Of a DNA stretch of 23,295 bases, positions 435 to 18,813 are shown in pieces; the stretch's first letter is position 1, and each line of letters starts with the position of its first letter. The DNA is from a virus. The stretch lies in the IMG/VR virus record IMGVR_UViG_3300026116_000097, positions 1 through 23,295 of that record; one strand, given 5' to 3'. Under the pieces are notes generated by a model. It was not told where the DNA came from. It made no database searches and saw only the letters and a program-made list of their open reading frames with translations. A program made the position numbers and the translations under genes.

Positions 435-2632
435 GCGCCCAGCCCTCAGACTTCGACCGCGACGCAACGACCGACGAAGGCATCTGGCGCGAGTGCGCCG
501 AACGCCTGCGGATGGCGACGGCGGCCGAGTCTGAGAACCGCATCAAGGGCATCAGCGCGCTTCAGTTCCGCTGGGGCGAGCAGTGGGATGCCGATGTGCG
601 CAATACGCGCAAGATCGACGGCCGCCCCGCACTCACAATCAACCACACGAACACGTTCTGCGCGCGCCTCGCGAACACGCTCCGCCAGCAGCGCCCGCGC
701 ATCAAGTGTCACCCAGTGGGCGACGGTGCAGACGTCGATACGGCCGCGACCGTCAACGGCCTGATCCGTCACATCGAGACGCTGAGCAATGCCTCGGTGG
801 CCTACGACACGGGCGTCGAGAGCGCGATCAACATCGGCTGGGGCTACTGGCGCATCGTCAGCCAGTACATCGACGAGAAGAGCTTCGATCAGGAGCTGAA
901 GATCCTGCCGATCCGCAACACCTTCACGGTGTACATGGATCCGGCCGCCACCATGCCCGCTGGCGAGGACATGGGCTGGTGCATCATCAGTGAAACGATG
1001 AAGCGCTCGGAGTACAAGCGGAAGTACCCGAAGGCAGAAAACTGCGAATGGCGCTACACCGATGCGCCTGGCGACATGGTGACGGACTGGGAGAGCAAGG
1101 AAGAACTGCGCCTGGCCGAGTACTACCGCATTCACGAGGTGCGAGACACGCTGTGCAAGCTGTCTGATGGGTCCACGAAACTGATGTCGGAGCTTGTGGA
1201 CCCCGATGTGATCGCGGCCATGGGCCTCATGATCGTGGCCAAGCGTCCAACCACACGCCGTGAGGTGCAGTGGTTCCGGCTTAACGGCTGCACAGTGATT
1301 GATCAGCGCACGATCCCGGGCCGCTTCATCCCTGTGATTCGCTGCGAGGGTAACGTCCTCGACGTGAATGGCCGCGTCTGCCGCAAGGGCATGGTTGAGG
1401 ACCTCAAAGACCCTGCGCAGATGTTCAATTACTGGCGCACGGCACAGACCGAGCGTTACGCGTTGACGCCCAAGGCGCCATGGGTCGTCGCTGAGGGGCA
1501 GATCGAGGGTCACCCCGAATGGAATGACGCGAACCAGAAGAGCTATTCCACGCTCGTCTACAAGCCGATAGCGGGCCCCGATGGCATGACGCCATTGCCG
1601 CCGCCGGTTCGCGTGCCGCCGGCTCAGGTGGAAGCGGGCATGTCCGAGGCTGCGCAGGGTGCCGAGCACGACCTGATGTCGGTCGCCGGCATGCCGCAGG
1701 AGAATCCAGAGATCTCCGCGCGCGTGGTGAGTGGCAACAAGTATCTGCAGCGCCGACAGGGCATGCAGGACCTGACGCACTTCCAGTACTACGACAACCA
1801 GACGCTGGCAATTGCATGGACGGGCTCTATCCTGCTGGAGCTTATCCCGTACTACTACGACACGCAGCGGATGCAGCGGATCATCGGCGACGACGGCGTG
1901 CCGCAGATGGTCGGCATCAACCAGCCGACCGAAAGCCCCGAGAATCCGTCGATTCAGATCGTGAAGAACGACCTCAAGGTGGGTCGCTACGACGTCGTGA
2001 TGGATACAGGGCCCGGCTACGCGACGAAGCGCGAGGAAGCCGCCGAATCGATGCTGGAACTTCTTGGTACACCGCTCGGTGAGCAGGTGGCCTCGACGAG
2101 CGGCGACATCATCGTGCGCAACATGGATTTCCCGGGCGCCGATGAGGTGGCCGATCGCATCGCTGTCACAATCCCGGGCGCGCTCGACAAGATCATGGAG
2201 GGCTTGCCGAAGCAGGCGCAGACCATCATTGGCTCGCTGCAGGCGCAGATGAAGCAGCTGCAGGACCAGAACCAGCAGCAGGCGCTCGAGATCAAGTACG
2301 GCCGCGGCATAGCCGAGCTGAAGGAAGAGGGCGCAACCAGGCGCACGCTCATCACAGCGACCGGAAAAGCGCACGACACCGAGCGCAAAGCCAAGAGCGA
2401 CGATCTCAACAGCGAGCGCGACTACGAAGGCTGGCAGAGCGAAGTGGACAAGAATGTCCGCGCAAAGATTGCCGTGGCGCATATCCAACGCGATACCGCG
2501 CTCGACGTCGCCGAGATTCGCGTGGGCGGTCAGTTGCTGAACACCCATGCGGAGGCGGCCCACGAAGCGAAAGCCGCAGATAAGGCCATCGAGGCCGCCC
2601 AGACAGACAGGCGCGAGAGCGCAGGAAAGTAA
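431..2632 (+). CDS. Portal protein (P22 gp1-like)
   Basis: The 733-aa product is close to the 725 aa of the P22 portal and sits at the P22 portal position, between terminase and scaffold. The portal is a 12-subunit ring at one capsid vertex through which DNA is packaged and ejected. The N-terminal part (about residues 1-120) holds a typical opening with RFRWGEQW-like and NHTNTF segments; the central part has the conserved stretch SARVVSGNKYLQRRQGMQDL near residues 430-450, followed by an aromatic TYYYD-like region. After residue 600 the protein becomes a long Gln/Ala/Glu/Lys-rich coiled-coil tail, in keeping with the barrel helix of P22-type portals. The start ATG overlaps the upstream stop. 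A long opposite-strand open frame across it is a composition artefact. Confidence 0.93.
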   Translation: MSAQPSDFDRDATTDEGIWRECAERLRMATAAESENRIKGISALQFRWGEQWDADVRNTRKIDGRPALTINHTNTFCARLANTLRQQRPRIKCHPVGDGADVDTAATVNGLIRHIETLSNASVAYDTGVESAINIGWGYWRIVSQYIDEKSFDQELKILPIRNTFTVYMDPAATMPAGEDMGWCIISETMKRSEYKRKYPKAENCEWRYTDAPGDMVTDWESKEELRLAEYYRIHEVRDTLCKLSDGSTKLMSELVDPDVIAAMGLMIVAKRPTTRREVQWFRLNGCTVIDQRTIPGRFIPVIRCEGNVLDVNGRVCRKGMVEDLKDPAQMFNYWRTAQTERYALTPKAPWVVAEGQIEGHPEWNDANQKSYSTLVYKPIAGPDGMTPLPPPVRVPPAQVEAGMSEAAQGAEHDLMSVAGMPQENPEISARVVSGNKYLQRRQGMQDLTHFQYYDNQTLAIAWTGSILLELIPYYYDTQRMQRIIGDDGVPQMVGINQPTESPENPSIQIVKNDLKVGRYDVVMDTGPGYATKREEAAESMLELLGTPLGEQVASTSGDIIVRNMDFPGADEVADRIAVTIPGALDKIMEGLPKQAQTIIGSLQAQMKQLQDQNQQQALEIKYGRGIAELKEEGATRRTLITATGKAHDTERKAKSDDLNSERDYEGWQSEVDKNVRAKIAVAHIQRDTALDVAEIRVGGQLLNTHAEAAHEAKAADKAIEAAQTDRRESAGK

Positions 2633-3661
2633 ATGGCTCAGGTCCTCACGAACGAGAACATGGTGGAGTTCATTCAGACGCGTCAGGCGCCAGAGTTCAA
2701 GGCGCCAGAAGCGAAGTCTGAACCTGCCAACCCATCCGAAGCCGCGGCTGCAAAGCCAGCGGACTCAGCAACAGCATCGGCAGCAGAACCGGCAAAGGCC
2801 GAGCGGCCGCGCGCGGAGGATGGAAAGTTCGTGAAGGCCGAAGAGGCCAAGAAGGAAGAGCCGGCGGCGAAGGCCGCAGACGATGACGAGCACGATGATG
2901 ACGGTGCGAAACTGAGCGACGCGGTAAAACGCAAGATCGACAAGATCGTCGCAAAGAAGCACAGGGCGATGAAAGAGGCCGAAGAGTTCGCGCGCGATGA
3001 GTATCGTGAGCGGAAAGCGGCAGTTGAGCGTGCAGAGGCCTTGCAGCGTGAAATCGACGCGCTGAAGGCCGGGAAGTCACAGCCCGGCACGGCATCCACC
3101 GAGGGCGATGAGCCCAAGATGGAAGACTTCAAAACGGTTGGCGAATACGCGAAAGCACTCGCGAAGTACGAAACGGCGCAGGCCCTCAAGGCCGAACGCG
3201 CAGAGCGTGCGAAAGATACCCAGAAGCAGGCAATCGAGAACGTGCAGCAGCAGTTTGCTGAGCGCGTGGCTTCGACCGCCAAAGAGATTTCCGACTATCA
3301 CGAGGTAGTCGAGGCTGCTGATTGGGAAGTCCCGCACCACATTCAGGCGTACATCGTGGATAGCGAGCATGGAGCCCGTCTGGGCTACGAGCTCGCGAAG
3401 AATCGCATTGAGTTCGACCGTATCGCAAAACTGTCGCCGATCCGCGCGTTCGCGGAGCTCGGCAAACTGGAAGACAAGCTCACCGCGAAAGCGGCGCCGG
3501 CCAAAGAGCCCGCAGCCGCGTCGGCGCAAGTCTCCAGAGCCCCCGCACCGATCACCCCACTCGAAGGCAAGTCCACGACGGTCGCAAAACGGCCCGAGGA
3601 CATGAACTTTCAAGAGCTGCGCGCCCACCGAATGGCGGAGCGCGCGGCGGGGAAGAGGTGA
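2633..3661 (+). CDS. Scaffolding protein (P22 gp8-like)
   Basis: The ATG follows the portal stop with no gap. The product has 342 aa, similar to the 303 aa of P22 scaffold. It is highly charged and low in complexity: an Ala/Pro/Glu/Lys-rich, probably disordered first 80 residues with an acidic DDDEHDDD run, then a long coiled-coil region (about 90-230), and a basic C-terminal helix ending AHRMAERAAGKR. A short, basic, C-terminal helix-turn-helix is what P22-type scaffold uses to bind coat protein. Scaffold guides procapsid assembly and then leaves. The identification rests on position between portal and coat, composition and the basic C-terminus, not on a conserved catalytic motif. Confidence 0.85.
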   Translation: MAQVLTNENMVEFIQTRQAPEFKAPEAKSEPANPSEAAAAKPADSATASAAEPAKAERPRAEDGKFVKAEEAKKEEPAAKAADDDEHDDDGAKLSDAVKRKIDKIVAKKHRAMKEAEEFARDEYRERKAAVERAEALQREIDALKAGKSQPGTASTEGDEPKMEDFKTVGEYAKALAKYETAQALKAERAERAKDTQKQAIENVQQQFAERVASTAKEISDYHEVVEAADWEVPHHIQAYIVDSEHGARLGYELAKNRIEFDRIAKLSPIRAFAELGKLEDKLTAKAAPAKEPAAASAQVSRAPAPITPLEGKSTTVAKRPEDMNFQELRAHRMAERAAGKR

Positions 3662-3671
3662 GGGAACGGCT

Positions 3672-4310
3672 ATGACCATCAATAGCCCCGGTCTCACCAT
3701 GGCAGATGCTTCTGAAAGCCTTCTGCAGCGTTTTTCTGTGAAGTGTGCCAAGCCAGATGCGAACGGTTGCATTCACTGGCTGGGGTCAAAAACGAAACGT
3801 GGTTATGGGGTCATCCTGATCGGAAAGGTCCGAGGGAAGAATCTCAGAACGACGGCTCATCGTGCCGCGTGGCTGCTAGAACGAGGCGACTTGTCGCCTG
3901 AAATCCTAGTGCTGCATAAGTGCGATAACCCTTCATGCGTCAATGTCGATCATCTATTTCTCGGATCACCTGCAAACAACACGCGCGACATGGTGGCTAA
4001 GAATCGCCACGGTTGGCGCCATGGGACTCCATGGCAGAAGTTGAATGCAGTGGATGGCGAGCGGATTCGTGATCTGCGTGCCGCAGGGTATTCACAGCAG
4101 AAGATCGCTGATTGGATTGGCGTCAGCAGGCCGCTGATATCAATGGTGTTGGCCGGGAAAATCTTTCATTCCCGACACCCTATTGGGCTGCTAAGGAGCA
4201 GCGAACATCAGCAACAATTTGCTTACGATCAGCTACATCACCAACGAAGGTCTGTTGGTGCTGGAAAACACGCTGGTCTTCGCCGACAAGGTGGACCGTC
4301 AGTATTCTGA
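3672..4310 (+). CDS. HNH endonuclease with C-terminal HTH, inserted upstream of coat
   Basis: The 212-aa frame starts at ATG 3672 behind a GAGGGA ribosome site; ATG 3699 (residue 10) is an alternative. It carries the zinc-type HNH signature of phage homing-like nucleases: AHRAAW (His63), then HKCDNPSCVNVDHLF (His82, Cys84, Cys89, Asn91, His94). A helix-turn-helix follows at about residues 141-158 and the family domain seems to end near residue 165 (GKIF). The last 45 residues are simply the coat gene read in another frame, so the original stop seems to have been lost. The first ten or so residues do not resemble an HNH opening. It probably nicks or cuts DNA of related phages lacking the insertion. 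It separates scaffold and coat, which are adjacent in P22. Confidence 0.85.
   Translation: MTINSPGLTMADASESLLQRFSVKCAKPDANGCIHWLGSKTKRGYGVILIGKVRGKNLRTTAHRAAWLLERGDLSPEILVLHKCDNPSCVNVDHLFLGSPANNTRDMVAKNRHGWRHGTPWQKLNAVDGERIRDLRAAGYSQQKIADWIGVSRPLISMVLAGKIFHSRHPIGLLRSSEHQQQFAYDQLHHQRRSVGAGKHAGLRRQGGPSVF
4187..4202 (+). promoter_or_regulatory. Hairpin over the coat gene ribosome site
   Basis: GCTGCT (4187-4192) and AGCAGC (4197-4202) form a perfect 6-bp stem around the loop AAGG. The ribosome site AAGGAG (4193-4198) of the coat gene therefore lies partly in the loop and partly in the right arm. Ribosomes translating the HNH gene pass through this hairpin and stop only at 4310, so they would open it. 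The pairing is seen; control of coat translation by it is inference. Confidence 0.4.
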
Positions 4311-5568
4311 CGAGTTTGCCATCAAGGGCGCGAAGATCGGTGCCACCTGCAACGTGCGGCGCCCGCCGCGTTACCTCGGCACTTTCGGCCCCGCGCTGAA
4401 TGTCGAAGACACGAACGAGACCTATGTTCCGGTCTCGCTGAACAATCAGTTCCATGTGGACGTGCAGTTCACGACGGCGGACTTGCTGCTGTCGATGGAT
4501 ATGTTCCGCACGCGCGTGCTGAAGCCGATGATGGCGACAGTTGCGAACCGCATCGACTCGGACGGCCTGTATTTCGCCTACCAGAACACGGCCCAGTACG
4601 TGGGCACGCCGGGCACGGTGCCGTCGAACTACCTGACGTTCGCATCAGCGGACGCCCAGCTGTCGAACGAAGCCATCCCCGAGGATGGCCGCTGCATGAT
4701 CCTCTCGCCCTACACCATGGCTTCTGCCGTGGACGGGGTGAAAGGCCTGTTCAATCCCCAGGCACAGATCGGCGAGTTCCTGAAGCGGAACATGATCGCG
4801 AAGAACTTCGCGAACTTCGACTGGTACAAAGACCAGAACGTTGTCACGTTCACCCAGGGCAACTTCCCGAGTGCCCCGACGCTGAAGGCTGTCACTCAGC
4901 CGGCGATCATCTCCACGGGCTGGGCACAGTCGGGCTTCCTGCAGACGACCGGATGGGGCGCAACCGCCGCGGGCCCGAAGGTCGGCGACATCATCTCCAT
5001 TGCGGGTGTCTATCCGGCGAACCCGCAGAGCCGCACGCAATACGGTTCGGCGCTCAAGACGTTCGTGGTGCTGCCACCGGGTGGGTATACGCAGAACCCG
5101 ATTGGTGCGGCAACGCCTGGGCCGGCATACGCGGCGGCATCGCTCACATACGGCACGTTCAGCGCCACGACAGGCGTCTACACCTCAGACGGCGGCGAGG
5201 ATCTCTCGCTGCTCATCGGCGAGGTTGTGATCACTGGCGGTCAGTTCCAGAACGTGGCCGTGCCGGGCGGTTCCATCTCGACGACGGCGGCGCTGTCCTT
5301 CTGGGGAACGACGACCACCTCAATGGACGGCATCGTCACCCCGCAGGGCATCGCGCTTCACAAGACGGCCTTCGCGCTCGCATTCGCGGATCTTCCGCTG
5401 CCACGTGGCGTGGAAGAGGCGGCACGCGCCAACGATGCGGATATCGGTATGTCGATGCGCATGGTGACGCAGTACACCGTGAACAACGATGCGATGCCGA
5501 CGCGTTGCGACGTCCTGTACGGCTATGCGGGTTTGTACCGCAATGCCGCTGTGCGCGTGGTCGGCTAA
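4207..5568 (+). CDS. Major coat protein (P22 gp5-like), apparent ATC start
   Basis: This is the main capsid protein, 453 aa counted from codon 4207. It fits the P22 coat family in length (430 aa in P22), in position after scaffold, and in motifs: an opening NNLLTISYITNE, then ENTLVFADKVDRQYSDEF, a VQFTTADLLLSMDMF stretch, and an inserted beta domain around residues 230-340 containing GDIISIAGVYPANPQS. The frame is closed upstream by TAA 4192-4194, and no ATG or GTG exists before well-conserved sequence. TTG 4219 is the first usual start but has no ribosome site. TAAGGAG 4192-4198 lies 8 nt before ATC 4207, which would give (M)SNNLLTISYITNE. I chose 4207 on that ground; a true ATC start, a base error, or removal of the HNH insert at RNA level all remain open. 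Confidence 0.88.
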   Translation: MSNNLLTISYITNEGLLVLENTLVFADKVDRQYSDEFAIKGAKIGATCNVRRPPRYLGTFGPALNVEDTNETYVPVSLNNQFHVDVQFTTADLLLSMDMFRTRVLKPMMATVANRIDSDGLYFAYQNTAQYVGTPGTVPSNYLTFASADAQLSNEAIPEDGRCMILSPYTMASAVDGVKGLFNPQAQIGEFLKRNMIAKNFANFDWYKDQNVVTFTQGNFPSAPTLKAVTQPAIISTGWAQSGFLQTTGWGATAAGPKVGDIISIAGVYPANPQSRTQYGSALKTFVVLPPGGYTQNPIGAATPGPAYAAASLTYGTFSATTGVYTSDGGEDLSLLIGEVVITGGQFQNVAVPGGSISTTAALSFWGTTTTSMDGIVTPQGIALHKTAFALAFADLPLPRGVEEAARANDADIGMSMRMVTQYTVNNDAMPTRCDVLYGYAGLYRNAAVRVVG

Positions 5569-5580
5569 GGAGAATCACAC
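5566..5580 (+). promoter_or_regulatory. Strong ribosome site TAAGGAG after coat
   Basis: TAAGGAG (5566-5572) contains the coat stop codon and sits exactly 8 nt before ATG 5581. The same 7-mer with the same 8-nt spacing precedes ATC 4207 of the coat gene, which is the main evidence for placing the coat start there. Confidence 0.8.
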
Positions 5581-5862
5581 ATGAGCTACACCAATCCTGG
5601 CCCGGCTATTACGACGGGCAGCACCATCACCGGCACCGGCAGCCCCTGGGGAGGCGGCGCCTCAGCAACCAGCACCGTGGGCTTCTATGGCGTGACTCCC
5701 ATCACGCAGCCAACGAACGCGGCGCAGGCGGCCCTGACGCTGACCACCGCAATCGGTGGCGGCTATGGGTTCAACACGGCTACAGCCTTCAACGCGTTCA
5801 CCGCGCAGTTGGAGAACATCCGAGCAAGCCTCGTGCTGCTTGGCCTGCTCAAGGGTTCGTAA
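5581..5862 (+). CDS. Small coat-proximal protein, paralogue 1 (decoration or head-fibre candidate)
   Basis: This 93-aa protein follows the coat gene behind a strong TAAGGAG ribosome site. Its first 30 residues are Gly/Thr/Ser-rich; the rest, from GFYGVTPITQP to the end, is shared with the next gene. The motif GFxGVTPxxQP followed by a helix ending in LxxLGLL recurs in phage head-fibre and tail-fibre proteins that follow the coat gene. The strong translation signal, small size and place fit a capsid decoration or head-fibre protein made in many copies. The paralogy and motif are seen; the role is inferred. Confidence 0.8.
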   Translation: MSYTNPGPAITTGSTITGTGSPWGGGASATSTVGFYGVTPITQPTNAAQAALTLTTAIGGGYGFNTATAFNAFTAQLENIRASLVLLGLLKGS

Positions 5863-5907: not shown

Positions 5908-6186
5908 ATGAGTGCACCAGTAGGGACAGGCCGCGCGTTGGGCGTTGCAATGTCCGTGATGGAGTTCGATCAGATCTCGATGACCACCCAGTCAAAGGCT
6001 GGCTTCTTTGGCGTTACCCCGGTAACTCAACCGGCCAATGCAGCGCAGGCCGCATTGACCCTCGTCACCGCCATTGGAGGCGGTTACGGATTCAATACGG
6101 CGACCGCCTTCAACGCGTTCACGGCTCAGCTTGAGAACATCCGGGCTTCGCTCGTGACTCTTGGCTTGCTCAAGGGCGCCGCGTAA
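5908..6186 (+). CDS. Small coat-proximal protein, paralogue 2
   Basis: The 92-aa product starts at ATG 5908 behind GGAG; the GTG at 5896 would lie inside that ribosome site. From GFFGVTPVTQP onward it nearly copies the preceding gene (GGGYGFNTATAFNAFTAQLE is identical in both), while the first 30 residues differ completely. Most base changes between the two copies are at third codon positions, so this is an old duplication kept under selection. As with its twin, it is a decoration or head-fibre candidate; the two could form mixed oligomers or bind different sites on the capsid. Confidence 0.8.
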   Translation: MSAPVGTGRALGVAMSVMEFDQISMTTQSKAGFFGVTPVTQPANAAQAALTLVTAIGGGYGFNTATAFNAFTAQLENIRASLVTLGLLKGAA

Positions 6187-8749: not shown

Positions 8750-9226
8750 ATGAACACCATAGAATCAGTCTGGAAAAAGATCGAGCAGCGTGGGCCTGAT
8801 GAATGCTGGCCGTGGAAGGGTTACACGTCGAGTGGCTACGGCCGCATAGACATCTGCGGGATCAAGGGCGTGTACGCACATAGGGCCGCATACATTGCTG
8901 CGTTCCCCAGCAGCCTGCCGTTGAAAGACGATGAAAGTGATCAAGATGTCCTACATCGTTGCGATAATCCGGTTTGCTGCAATCCGAATCATCTGTTTAT
9001 CGGAACGCATGCCGAGAACATGGAGGACAAGCGGAAGAAAGGACGCGCGCCGCGGCTGACTGGCGAACGTGGACCTCGTGCAAAGCTGACGTCAGAAGAC
9101 GTGTTCTGGATGCGCATGCAGAAGAAGTACGGCGCAACCAAGAAAGCGCTCGCATTGCTCTACGAAGTCAGCGAAGCGACTGTCTCTGGCGCGCTCTACG
9201 GTCGCCACTATCAGGACGTCACGTAA
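8750..9226 (+). CDS. HNH endonuclease with HTH, inserted between gp4- and gp10-like genes
   Basis: This 158-aa protein is from the same family as the HNH protein before the coat gene, but clearly diverged. It opens ECWPWKGYTSSGYGR, then has AHRAAY (His44) and HRCDNPVCCNPNHLF (His69, Cys71, Cys76, Asn78, His81), then a helix-turn-helix near residues 128-148 (TKKALALLYEVSEATVSGAL). It has its own stop, TAA 9224-9226, overlapping the ATG of the gp10-like gene by one base. The ribosome site is weak. gp4 and gp10 genes are adjacent in P22, so this is a free-standing homing-type insertion at a gene junction. Confidence 0.88.
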   Translation: MNTIESVWKKIEQRGPDECWPWKGYTSSGYGRIDICGIKGVYAHRAAYIAAFPSSLPLKDDESDQDVLHRCDNPVCCNPNHLFIGTHAENMEDKRKKGRAPRLTGERGPRAKLTSEDVFWMRMQKKYGATKKALALLYEVSEATVSGALYGRHYQDVT

Positions 9227-16183: not shown

Positions 16184-17137
16184 GTGACCGACATCCTCTC
16201 GCCATCTCCCAAGCAGCAGTTCTTTGACAATAACGGGCGGCCGTTGGTGGGCGGGAAACTGTTCACCTATGAGGCGGGTAGCTCCACGAAGCTTGCCACC
16301 TACACCGACTCTGGCGGTCTCACAGCCAACGCGAATCCGATCGTCCTCGACTACCGGGGCGAGGCGAATATCTGGATCCCTCCGAACGTCGCATATAAGT
16401 ACGTTCTGTCACCGAGCACGGATACAGACCCGCCGACAAATCCCATCTGGTCCATCGATGACGTAATAAGTTCACAACTCATTACCCTCTATGGAGGGGT
16501 CGATGAAGGAGTGGCGAACGCCTACGTCCTGACGTTCACAGCGAACTTCACCGCGTACACAGACGGCATCGTTATCTACTGGATTCCGGCGCACACCAAC
16601 TCGACGGCCAGCACGATCAATGTCAATGGTCTCGGAATCGTCGATATCGTCAACCAAGATGGCACTCCGCTCACCTCGAGCCAGCTCGTTGCAAACCAGG
16701 TTGCCACCATCATGTATGTGGGCGGGCAGTTCTTGCTGATCTCTTCGGGCATTGCGCCGAGCGTCGTCACGGGGTTTTTCACGCCAGCCTGGACAGGATT
16801 CTCAGCCGACCCGATCGGCGAAATCTTTTACACGAAGATCGGCGCGCTCATCATTCTCACGTTCGGTGTCTTCAGCACAGGGACATCCAACTCCACAGAG
16901 ATGAGTATTACAAATCTGCCATCGATCATTCGACCGCAGACCGATCCTAATCCGAGAGCGGTATGCCTCGTGGTGGATAACGGCCAGTCGGCTTCGGGCG
17001 CATTCAGCTTCGGCGTTATACCTGGAACGATGATTTTCTATAAGGGAACGGCGCCTCCGTCAGCCACTGGCTTCACAAATGCGGGCACCAAAGGCTTCGC
17101 GTCATATACGCCGATTTTCTATACGACACTCGCATGA
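16184..17137 (+). CDS. Tail fibre 1 with virion-binding N-terminal domain
   Basis: The 317-aa product starts at GTG 16184. Residues 1-90 form a virion-anchoring domain with FFDNNGRPLVGGKLFTYEAG, TYTD, NPIVLDYRGEANIWI and an IWSIDD end; this layout is common at the N-terminus of podovirus fibres and spikes. Residues 100-190 resemble a widespread fibre module (YVLTFTANFTAYTDGIVIYW, STINVNGLGIVDIV). The C-terminal 120 residues (PAWTGFSADPIGEIFYTKIG onward) are a beta-rich tip domain. There is no obvious enzyme. It is followed, with a 4-nt overlap, by a second protein with the same anchor. It probably serves as a short receptor-binding fibre or as an adaptor for the second. Confidence 0.8.
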   Translation: MTDILSPSPKQQFFDNNGRPLVGGKLFTYEAGSSTKLATYTDSGGLTANANPIVLDYRGEANIWIPPNVAYKYVLSPSTDTDPPTNPIWSIDDVISSQLITLYGGVDEGVANAYVLTFTANFTAYTDGIVIYWIPAHTNSTASTINVNGLGIVDIVNQDGTPLTSSQLVANQVATIMYVGGQFLLISSGIAPSVVTGFFTPAWTGFSADPIGEIFYTKIGALIILTFGVFSTGTSNSTEMSITNLPSIIRPQTDPNPRAVCLVVDNGQSASGAFSFGVIPGTMIFYKGTAPPSATGFTNAGTKGFASYTPIFYTTLA

Positions 17138-18813
17138 TCCTCTCGCCCATTCCAGTGATGAAGTTCTTCGACAACAACGGTCGCCCGTTGGTTGGAGGGC
17201 TGCTATTCACTTATGAGGCGGGTACTTCGACCAAGATCGCCACCTATACGGATGACTCAGGCGGAAGTCTCAACACGAATCCAATCGTGCTCGACTTCAG
17301 AGGCGAGGCGAACCTCTGGATCGATCCACAGCTCACTTACAAGTTCGTTCTCTCTCCGGCCGGAGACACCGATCCTCCGACGAGACCCATTTGGAGCGTC
17401 GACAACCTGTCCGCGCTTGGAGGTACGCAGTCTGTCGGTCAGGTGCTGTACCCGAGAACAGATGAAGAAGTAGCCGCGGGCATCACCCCGGTCCAGTACC
17501 AGTGGCCACCGAGATACGGCCTGCGCTACTCGGGGATCCTCGCCGATGGATCTACGGATTGCACCACTGCTATTGCTACCGTTGCGAACGCGCTCGCGGG
17601 GGTCGTCACCAATGGGCAGTGTCAGATCACGCTGCCGTTCAACGTGCTCTATGACCGCACAACCATCATGGGGCTCCTTGATCAGAGTGTGGTGCTGTTT
17701 GATCTGACGCAGATCAATGATCTGAACGGCGCGGGAGAGACTGCGAAGCGTATCGGGATGCTGGCGGCGGATGTGGCTGTGTCTGACTCCCAGTGGAGCA
17801 TCGATAGCGGTCATCACTGCGTGATGTCCACGAACAATCACGGTACCTCTGGATCGCTCTCGGCAAGTAAGCGATTAGCCACGTGGCTGTGGGCCGCGGG
17901 CGTGTTCACGCTCGGCACTCTCGCGAAAAGAGGCGACCGAGGCGCTGCACAGGCCCAGTGGGGCAAGGACACCGGGGACTACTACTCGTGGAAGCTCTCA
18001 TCTTTTGCGCCGTGGCTTGCCATTGCGGCGGATTACGAGCGCTGGGCGACAGGGCAGTCTGCGACGAGCGGCGTCTCCTACACTTTGGCGAGTGGTCGCA
18101 TTTACGTTGCCGCAAGCACTGGAACCACGGGCAGCACGGAACCGAATTGGTCAAGCGGTACATCCTCAGACGGTGGAGTCAACTGGACCTACGTCGATGA
18201 CTCCGATCGCACCATCTACACGATTGACCAGTACGGTCGGACACTGATCGGCAACGGTGCGGCTGGGCGCACCTTCTACATCAAGGTCACGCCTACCGAT
18301 CCAGGCGGTGGTAGCTGCTCGATTGAGTATGAGGCGACGGGCGTCAGCAAAGTGACGGACCTGCGTCTGACTGCAACCACCTCGGGCTCCGCTAGTTCTC
18401 CGCAGCCGTTCTTCCGTGCCCAGGATGCAGTGGGCGTGCGCGTCTTCGATAGCGCAGCTTCCGACGAGCTCGCGCGATTCTCCGATACGCTGGGACTATG
18501 GACCGGCATGGGCTCGGAGCGCTGGAGTCAGGCCGTTGACGGAGATACGACGCCCACGGTCCTCAATCAGCGCGTGCTCTACACCAACAATACCGGTGCC
18601 ACGAGCATCACGTTCTTCGATGACGGCGTGGATGGGCAGGAGATCAAGATTGTAGCCACGGACGCCAATACAACGCTGGTTAACTCCACGAATTTACTTT
18701 TGACCGGCGCTGCAAACCAACTGCTCACGCAGTTTTCAAGCGTGACGTTCTCAAAGGTGCCGGCGGCAATCGCATCGAACCGCTGGATCGAGACTGCAAG
18801 ATCCATCAAATGA
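17134..18813 (+). CDS. Tail spike / fibre 2 with the same anchor domain
   Basis: The 559-aa product repeats the anchor of fibre 1 (FFDNNGRPLVGGLLFTYEAG, NPIVLDFRGEANLWI, PIWSVDN). After it, YSGILADGSTDCTTAIATVA followed by ITLPFN resembles the start of a pectate-lyase-type beta-helix, as in tail spikes. A carbohydrate-binding-like module lies at about 315-350 (IYVAASTGTTGSTEPNWSSG, then DGGVNWTYV). The C-terminus (TGATSITFFDDGVDGQEIKI, then LVNSTNLLLTG and RWIETARSIK) is the usual spike-capping end. It probably binds, and may cleave, a surface polysaccharide; no catalytic residues can be named. An opposite-strand esterase gene ends 5 nt after its stop. Confidence 0.8.
   Translation: MILSPIPVMKFFDNNGRPLVGGLLFTYEAGTSTKIATYTDDSGGSLNTNPIVLDFRGEANLWIDPQLTYKFVLSPAGDTDPPTRPIWSVDNLSALGGTQSVGQVLYPRTDEEVAAGITPVQYQWPPRYGLRYSGILADGSTDCTTAIATVANALAGVVTNGQCQITLPFNVLYDRTTIMGLLDQSVVLFDLTQINDLNGAGETAKRIGMLAADVAVSDSQWSIDSGHHCVMSTNNHGTSGSLSASKRLATWLWAAGVFTLGTLAKRGDRGAAQAQWGKDTGDYYSWKLSSFAPWLAIAADYERWATGQSATSGVSYTLASGRIYVAASTGTTGSTEPNWSSGTSSDGGVNWTYVDDSDRTIYTIDQYGRTLIGNGAAGRTFYIKVTPTDPGGGSCSIEYEATGVSKVTDLRLTATTSGSASSPQPFFRAQDAVGVRVFDSAASDELARFSDTLGLWTGMGSERWSQAVDGDTTPTVLNQRVLYTNNTGATSITFFDDGVDGQEIKIVATDANTTLVNSTNLLLTGAANQLLTQFSSVTFSKVPAAIASNRWIETARSIK

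Follow-up and report, generated by a model that had tools for sequence, protein, structure and literature searches.

Genes that are begun by near-cognate codons include infC, which encodes IF3 and starts with AUU in E. coli and with ATC in Streptomyces, and sigR, whose GTC start is repressed by IF3 (PMC5472188). IF3 normally disfavours initiation at AUC-type codons (PMC5472188), and its overexpression also reduces re-initiation in E. coli (PMC2268962). In a survey of prokaryotic start codons, one AUG-to-AUU switch was found among 61,358 AUG starts and one GUG-to-AUU switch among 5,080 GUG starts, and no switch to AUC was reported (PMC5622118), which indicates that AUC and AUU starts are very rare in bacteria. 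Here, we describe a phage major coat protein gene that appears to start at ATC.

The window, i.e., the whole stretch of DNA analysed (23,295 nucleotides), corresponds to an entire IMG/VR viral record and represents a soil-type podovirus. Its gene order of portal, scaffold and coat is the same as in PBR31. The features surrounding the coat start were the following:

431 to 2632, + strand: P22-like portal gene (PF16510, E 2e-147).
2633 to 3661, + strand: scaffold-position gene with an ATG start, between portal and coat; no Pfam match was found for this gene, and the homologous position in PBR31 is annotated as a capsid scaffolding protein.
4187 to 4202, + strand: small hairpin GCTGCT-AAGG-AGCAGC, with the Shine-Dalgarno (SD) core in its loop (-8.0 kcal/mol alone).
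4192 to 4198, + strand: extended SD TAAGGAG, 8 nt 5' of ATC; its TAA (4192-4194) closes the coat frame upstream.
4207 to 4209, + strand: ATC start codon of the coat gene; nearly all relatives have a start codon at the homologous position.
4207 to 5568, + strand: P22-like major coat protein gene (PF11651), stop TAA at 5566-5568; N-terminus aligned with 252 relatives.

The coat frame matched P22_CoatProtein (PF11651) over residues 3-289, with an E-value of 4e-27 and 95 bits against a cut-off of 24. Direct reading confirmed the arrangement described in the earlier note, namely TAAGGAG, 8 nt and ATC, followed by AGC AAC AAT TTG CTT ACG (SNNLLTISYITNE). As also claimed there, the coat frame is closed at 4192 without an ATG or GTG, only GGA GCA GCG AAC being present between the TAA and ATC 4207. 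The next in-frame NTG is TTG 4219, 20 nt beyond the SD, and no usable ATG, GTG or TTG lies in the coat frame near a good SD in the window. The same 7-mer was indeed found a second time at 5566-5572, again 8 nt ahead of an ATG (5581). A window of this kind should contain TAAGGAG 0.89 times by chance (2 observed), so the 7-mer alone is no evidence; what goes beyond chance, as judged by alignment, is the conserved and homologous position of the start. The stretch around the 4187-4202 hairpin had a folding z of only -1.56. ATC and the leader were identical in L002 and L003, two separate, near-identical assemblies (coat 99% identical), which in practice excludes a base error.

When coat starts were compared in related phages, the homologous codon was nearly confined to start codons: codon 1 of 252 distinct relatives, counted after six rows had been moved by one codon, was ATG in 135, GTG in 70, TTG in 35, ATC in 8, ATT in 3 and ACG in 1. 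The ATC/ATT sequences were the window with L002; L021; L031; L035; L069 with L272; L349; L018; L038; and L348. At least nine separate changes are required to place them on a coat tree from which codon 1 had been left out. L419, another ATT case, was found later outside the main set, by a pattern requiring ATC/ATT. Alanine, serine and proline at residue 2 permit removal of the initiator methionine. Codon 2 encoded one of these residues in all ATC/ATT rows and, in the window's clade, in 130 of 136 members, which argues that codon 1 behaves as a start throughout.

The use of ATG differed between groups. In the lower-GC sister clade (N-terminus NNLLTISK), codon 1 was ATG in 106 out of 110 cases, versus 14 out of 81 in the group closest to the window, which has Y at residue 10; there, we observed 47 GTG, 12 TTG, 5 ATC, 2 ATT and 1 ACG. 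Within this closest group, the scaffold gene directly upstream started with ATG in 77 of the 79 readable cases (the search sought Met and the remainder were judged by eye). Non-ATG starts were thus found in 67 of 81 coat genes versus 2 of 79 scaffold genes (p 3e-28, to be read as an effect size, since the rows are related). Because the coat gene avoids ATG and the scaffold gene does not, this is a property of the coat gene and not of the host's general start usage, and a general host preference for non-ATG starts was ruled out. GC content alone was also rejected as an explanation: it is 0.46 in the sister clade versus 0.59, but 0.56 in the ATG-started members of the window's clade, and scaffold ATG occurs in the same genomes as non-ATG coat starts. 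Overall, these alignments show non-ATG coat starts to be the norm in the window's clade, ATG still being used by 28 of its 136 members.

The coat leader of the window lies inside another open reading frame, which overlaps the coat start out of frame by 103 nt and extends over most of a tract that has been replaced relative to the nearest sister:

3672 to 4310, + strand: predicted free-standing HNH homing-endonuclease gene, between scaffold and coat (PF13392, E 1e-8).
3671 to 4221, + strand: replaced tract (approximate), by comparison with L004; HNH gene, right end TAAGGAGCAGCG, ATC and about five coat codons.

The PF13392 HNH domain was found in the window, L021 and L069, and HNH homologues were present at the same place in L002, L003, L021, L069 with L272, L419 and L380, the contig of the latter ending inside the HNH gene. 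Presence was patchy, since in the searched set only the window with L002, L021, and L069 with L272 carried HNH at this site. HNH identity to the window was 62-74% and fell roughly as coat identity does; repeated transfer and ancient inheritance followed by many losses are therefore equally possible. The HNH stop codon of L021 and L419 lies 13 nt before ATC or ATT and overlaps or adjoins the coat SD; in L021, the TAA of TAAGGAG is itself the HNH stop, and HNH and coat are in one frame with this TAA between them. The window has one base fewer than L021 and L419, and its HNH frame consequently runs 103 nt into the coat gene.

L004, the nearest HNH-less sister, has a coat protein 93% identical to that of the window, a GTG start and the native hairpin. 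Compared with L004, the end of the scaffold gene is kept in the window and is followed by HNH, TAAGGAGCAGCGAAC and ATC; moreover, 7 differences were counted in the first 13 coat bases and 0 in the next 46; the leader, the start codon and some five codons thus seem to form a single tract. In the main set, the coat start was ATC in 3 out of 3 HNH lineages, versus ATC/ATT in 6 of 125 other rows (p 2.5e-4). With L419 as the fourth, all HNH-bearing lineages that could be read to the coat start have ATC or ATT. The 9-mer GGAGCAGCG precedes no coat start other than ATC/ATT in the set. L031 and L038 have no HNH, yet keep the GGAGCAGCG end and ATC/ATT, as a scar would. As a portable motif elsewhere, the GGAGCAGCG end was rejected, the pattern scan returning coat genes and unrelated matches that were mostly one repeated phage sequence. 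A second, related HNH gene (8750-9226, + strand; PF05551 and PF13392) is flanked by two other genes and ends in a TAA that overlaps an ordinary ATG (TAATG), showing that not every HNH gene here accompanies a weak start.

The SD matched over 6 nt or more in 5 of 9 ATC/ATT lineages, compared with 6 of 125 others (p 1.5e-4); the 7-nt match TAAGGAG occurred in the clade only before ATC/ATT starts. In tree-independent pairs, the SD followed the codon in 4-5 of 9 and almost never the reverse (p about 0.06). Exceptions were L069, with ATC but no good SD, and L349, with an in-frame GTG 9 nt upstream. No SD trade-off was detected between ATG and GTG/TTG starts (p 0.35). These tests were devised after the data had been seen, leaders recombine, and the p-values assume more independence than exists; for example, four ATC/ATT lineages have a leader 9-mer in common and may not be independent. 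The pattern agrees with, and does not prove, a pairing of weak codons with extended SDs like that at the AUU/AUA starts of S. aureus.

In relatives without HNH, the spacer between scaffold and coat is mostly some 16 to 73 nt long. Compared with shuffled sequences, its mean folding z was -1.7 in the clade (n = 121) versus 0.07 in the ATG-using sister clade (n = 20), and GGAG was mostly paired in 77% of the clade spacers. These predicted folds suggest that the clade's spacer usually forms a hairpin that hides the SD. In the MSYITNEAL group, it takes the form GCUCCUAA...UUAGGAG, and its loop-side pairs show compensatory changes; as this set was chosen by the hairpin motif, only pairs outside the motif count as covariation. 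Leader covariation was weak in the window's own group. The scaffold stop codon is often located in or beside the 5' arm of the hairpin, a layout from which we infer translational coupling, whereby a ribosome ending on the scaffold gene would open the hairpin.

In relatives, the coat gene is interrupted or flanked by group I introns (Rfam RF00028), as observed in L081 (3059-3279), L256 (4519-4768) and L269 (2276-2544 and 2624-2849), and gaps in the coat matches of L086, L234, L235 and L258 point to further insertions; this gene is a mobile-element hot spot in the family. In the intron-bearing L081 (at 2998-3003), the coat start position is occupied by ACG, preceded by TAGGAG and by an in-frame TAG 12 nt upstream; this ACG is possibly another near-cognate start. 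In the window, two tandem small genes 3' of the coat gene (5581-5862 and 5908-6186, + strand) share 87% identity over 63 residues, which suggests that they were duplicated recently. The adjacent genes 16184-17137 and 17134-18813 (+ strand) have N-terminal domains that are 64% identical, as in duplicated tail-fibre-like proteins. A 705-codon open frame at 446-2563 (- strand), antisense to the portal gene, is probably a by-product of high GC content and codon usage.

Based on sequence comparison, we consider that AUC 4207 is the real coat start, sustained by the extended SD and acquired with the HNH cassette, with a probability of about 0.72. The near-cognate start proposed in the earlier note is well supported by the comparison; what the note had missed is the likely HNH-borne origin and the clade-wide non-ATG norm. 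Ordinary initiator fMet-tRNA would translate the coat from AUC, reading it via the first two bases, while the long SD UAAGGAG would compensate for poor third-base pairing and ribosomes arriving from HNH would perhaps help initiation. The ATC itself may have been acquired by co-conversion with the cassette, the right end of which (AAGGAGCAGCG-NNN-AT[C/T]) would double as the coat start site. Such a weak start would keep coat translation moderate and tied to ribosomes from the upstream gene, i.e., scaffold natively and HNH here. A limit on coat synthesis, as suggested in the earlier note, is thus possible: weak initiation may be of use by matching coat to scaffold, or may be a tolerated side effect of homing. 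More tentatively, the cassette could carry its neighbour's start as a unit, composed of the HNH gene, a stop fused to the SD (AAGGAGCAGCG) and an AUC/AUU that makes the allele resistant to cleavage, with the extended SD rescuing coat translation. We regard this as rather doubtful; if it were true, immunity to the nuclease would have shaped the codon at which an essential capsid gene starts, in phages whose clade keeps coat initiation weak in any case.

Different readings of the same codon were weighed against this one. A simple sequencing or assembly error of an ATG has nothing in its favour except that the window is a metagenomic sequence, and is barely conceivable: the codon is identical in three assemblies, the nearest relatives have GTG or TTG, and ATC/ATT recurs in the lineages counted above. 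The same observations speak against the suggestion, made in the earlier note, that an ATG was changed to ATC by mutation. The other start considered there, TTG 4219 (codon 5), with ATC as part of an untranslated leader, is a legal start; TTG was moreover present at codon 5 in 4 of 9 ATC/ATT lineages versus 18 of 125 others (p 0.04). However, it lacks an SD at a suitable position, codon 5 is CTG, CTA or TTA in the other five ATC/ATT lineages, and, across the clade, residues 2-4 (SNN, ANN, PNN) are conserved while their codons change synonymously. A start at TTG 4219 is thus improbable.

A coat made as an HNH fusion, through a frameshift or readthrough of the stop, or from a spliced transcript with an ATG brought in upstream, appears even less probable. 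The overlap of the HNH frame with the coat start, the single TAA between HNH and coat in L021 and the introns in the coat genes of relatives would fit such a product, but the frame relation between HNH and coat differs among the window, L021 and L069, for which reason the fusion was rejected, and HNH is absent from most ATC/ATT lineages. No Rfam intron match was found in the window, across the coat start or elsewhere. We also searched for phage-encoded initiation components: no IF3 was found in the records of eight relatives and no tRNA in the window, and the one confident tRNA in the records of ten relatives was tRNA-His. A more serious, although still rather unlikely, alternative accepts AUC as real but gives it no regulatory meaning, the codon being a side effect of HNH homing that is tolerated because the strong SD rescues translation or because the target site is spoiled. 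The joint replacement of leader and first codons, the ATC/ATT in all HNH-bearing lineages read to the coat start and the scar-like ends of L031 and L038 are all consistent with it. However, ATC/ATT also occurs without any HNH trace in L018, L035, L348 and L349, and HNH leaves the clade-wide weak coat starts unexplained.

With AUC 4207 as the coat start, one phage capsid gene shows at least nine occurrences of ATC/ATT beside GTG, TTG and ATG relatives, a natural series in which trade-offs among SD strength, hairpins, coupling and start codon can be followed. Gene callers restricted to ATG, GTG and TTG will mis-start such coat genes, as did the mechanical ORF list, which gave TTG 4219.

Compared with known systems, the coat gene resembles infC and sigR in being begun by a near-cognate codon; these are low-level regulators tested with IF3 mutants (PMC5472188), whereas here the gene encodes a capsid protein and is known from its sequence. 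The AUU/AUA starts of S. aureus (PMC13009471) likewise combine an extended SD with a weak AUH start conserved across relatives, but they were mapped by ribosome profiling and reporters, while the phage start is supported by comparison only and its codon turns over quickly. SD-hiding hairpins with translational coupling are described in phage operons (PMC2988022); here, the SD would be hidden just after the upstream stop codon, as suggested by folding and partial covariation only, and together with a clade-wide non-AUG start. In T4, a homing endonuclease is likewise inserted next to an essential gene, at gene 60 with its 50-nt bypass insert (PMC5009743), and an unusual translation feature is found near its end; that feature may protect against cleavage, a role that by analogy could be played here by a start codon instead of a bypass. 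Finally, the free-standing homing endonucleases of T4 are intergenic and their flanks are co-converted (PMC2988022), similar to the intergenic HNH gene and replaced flanking tract observed here; unlike in T4, the flank in this phage holds a start codon.
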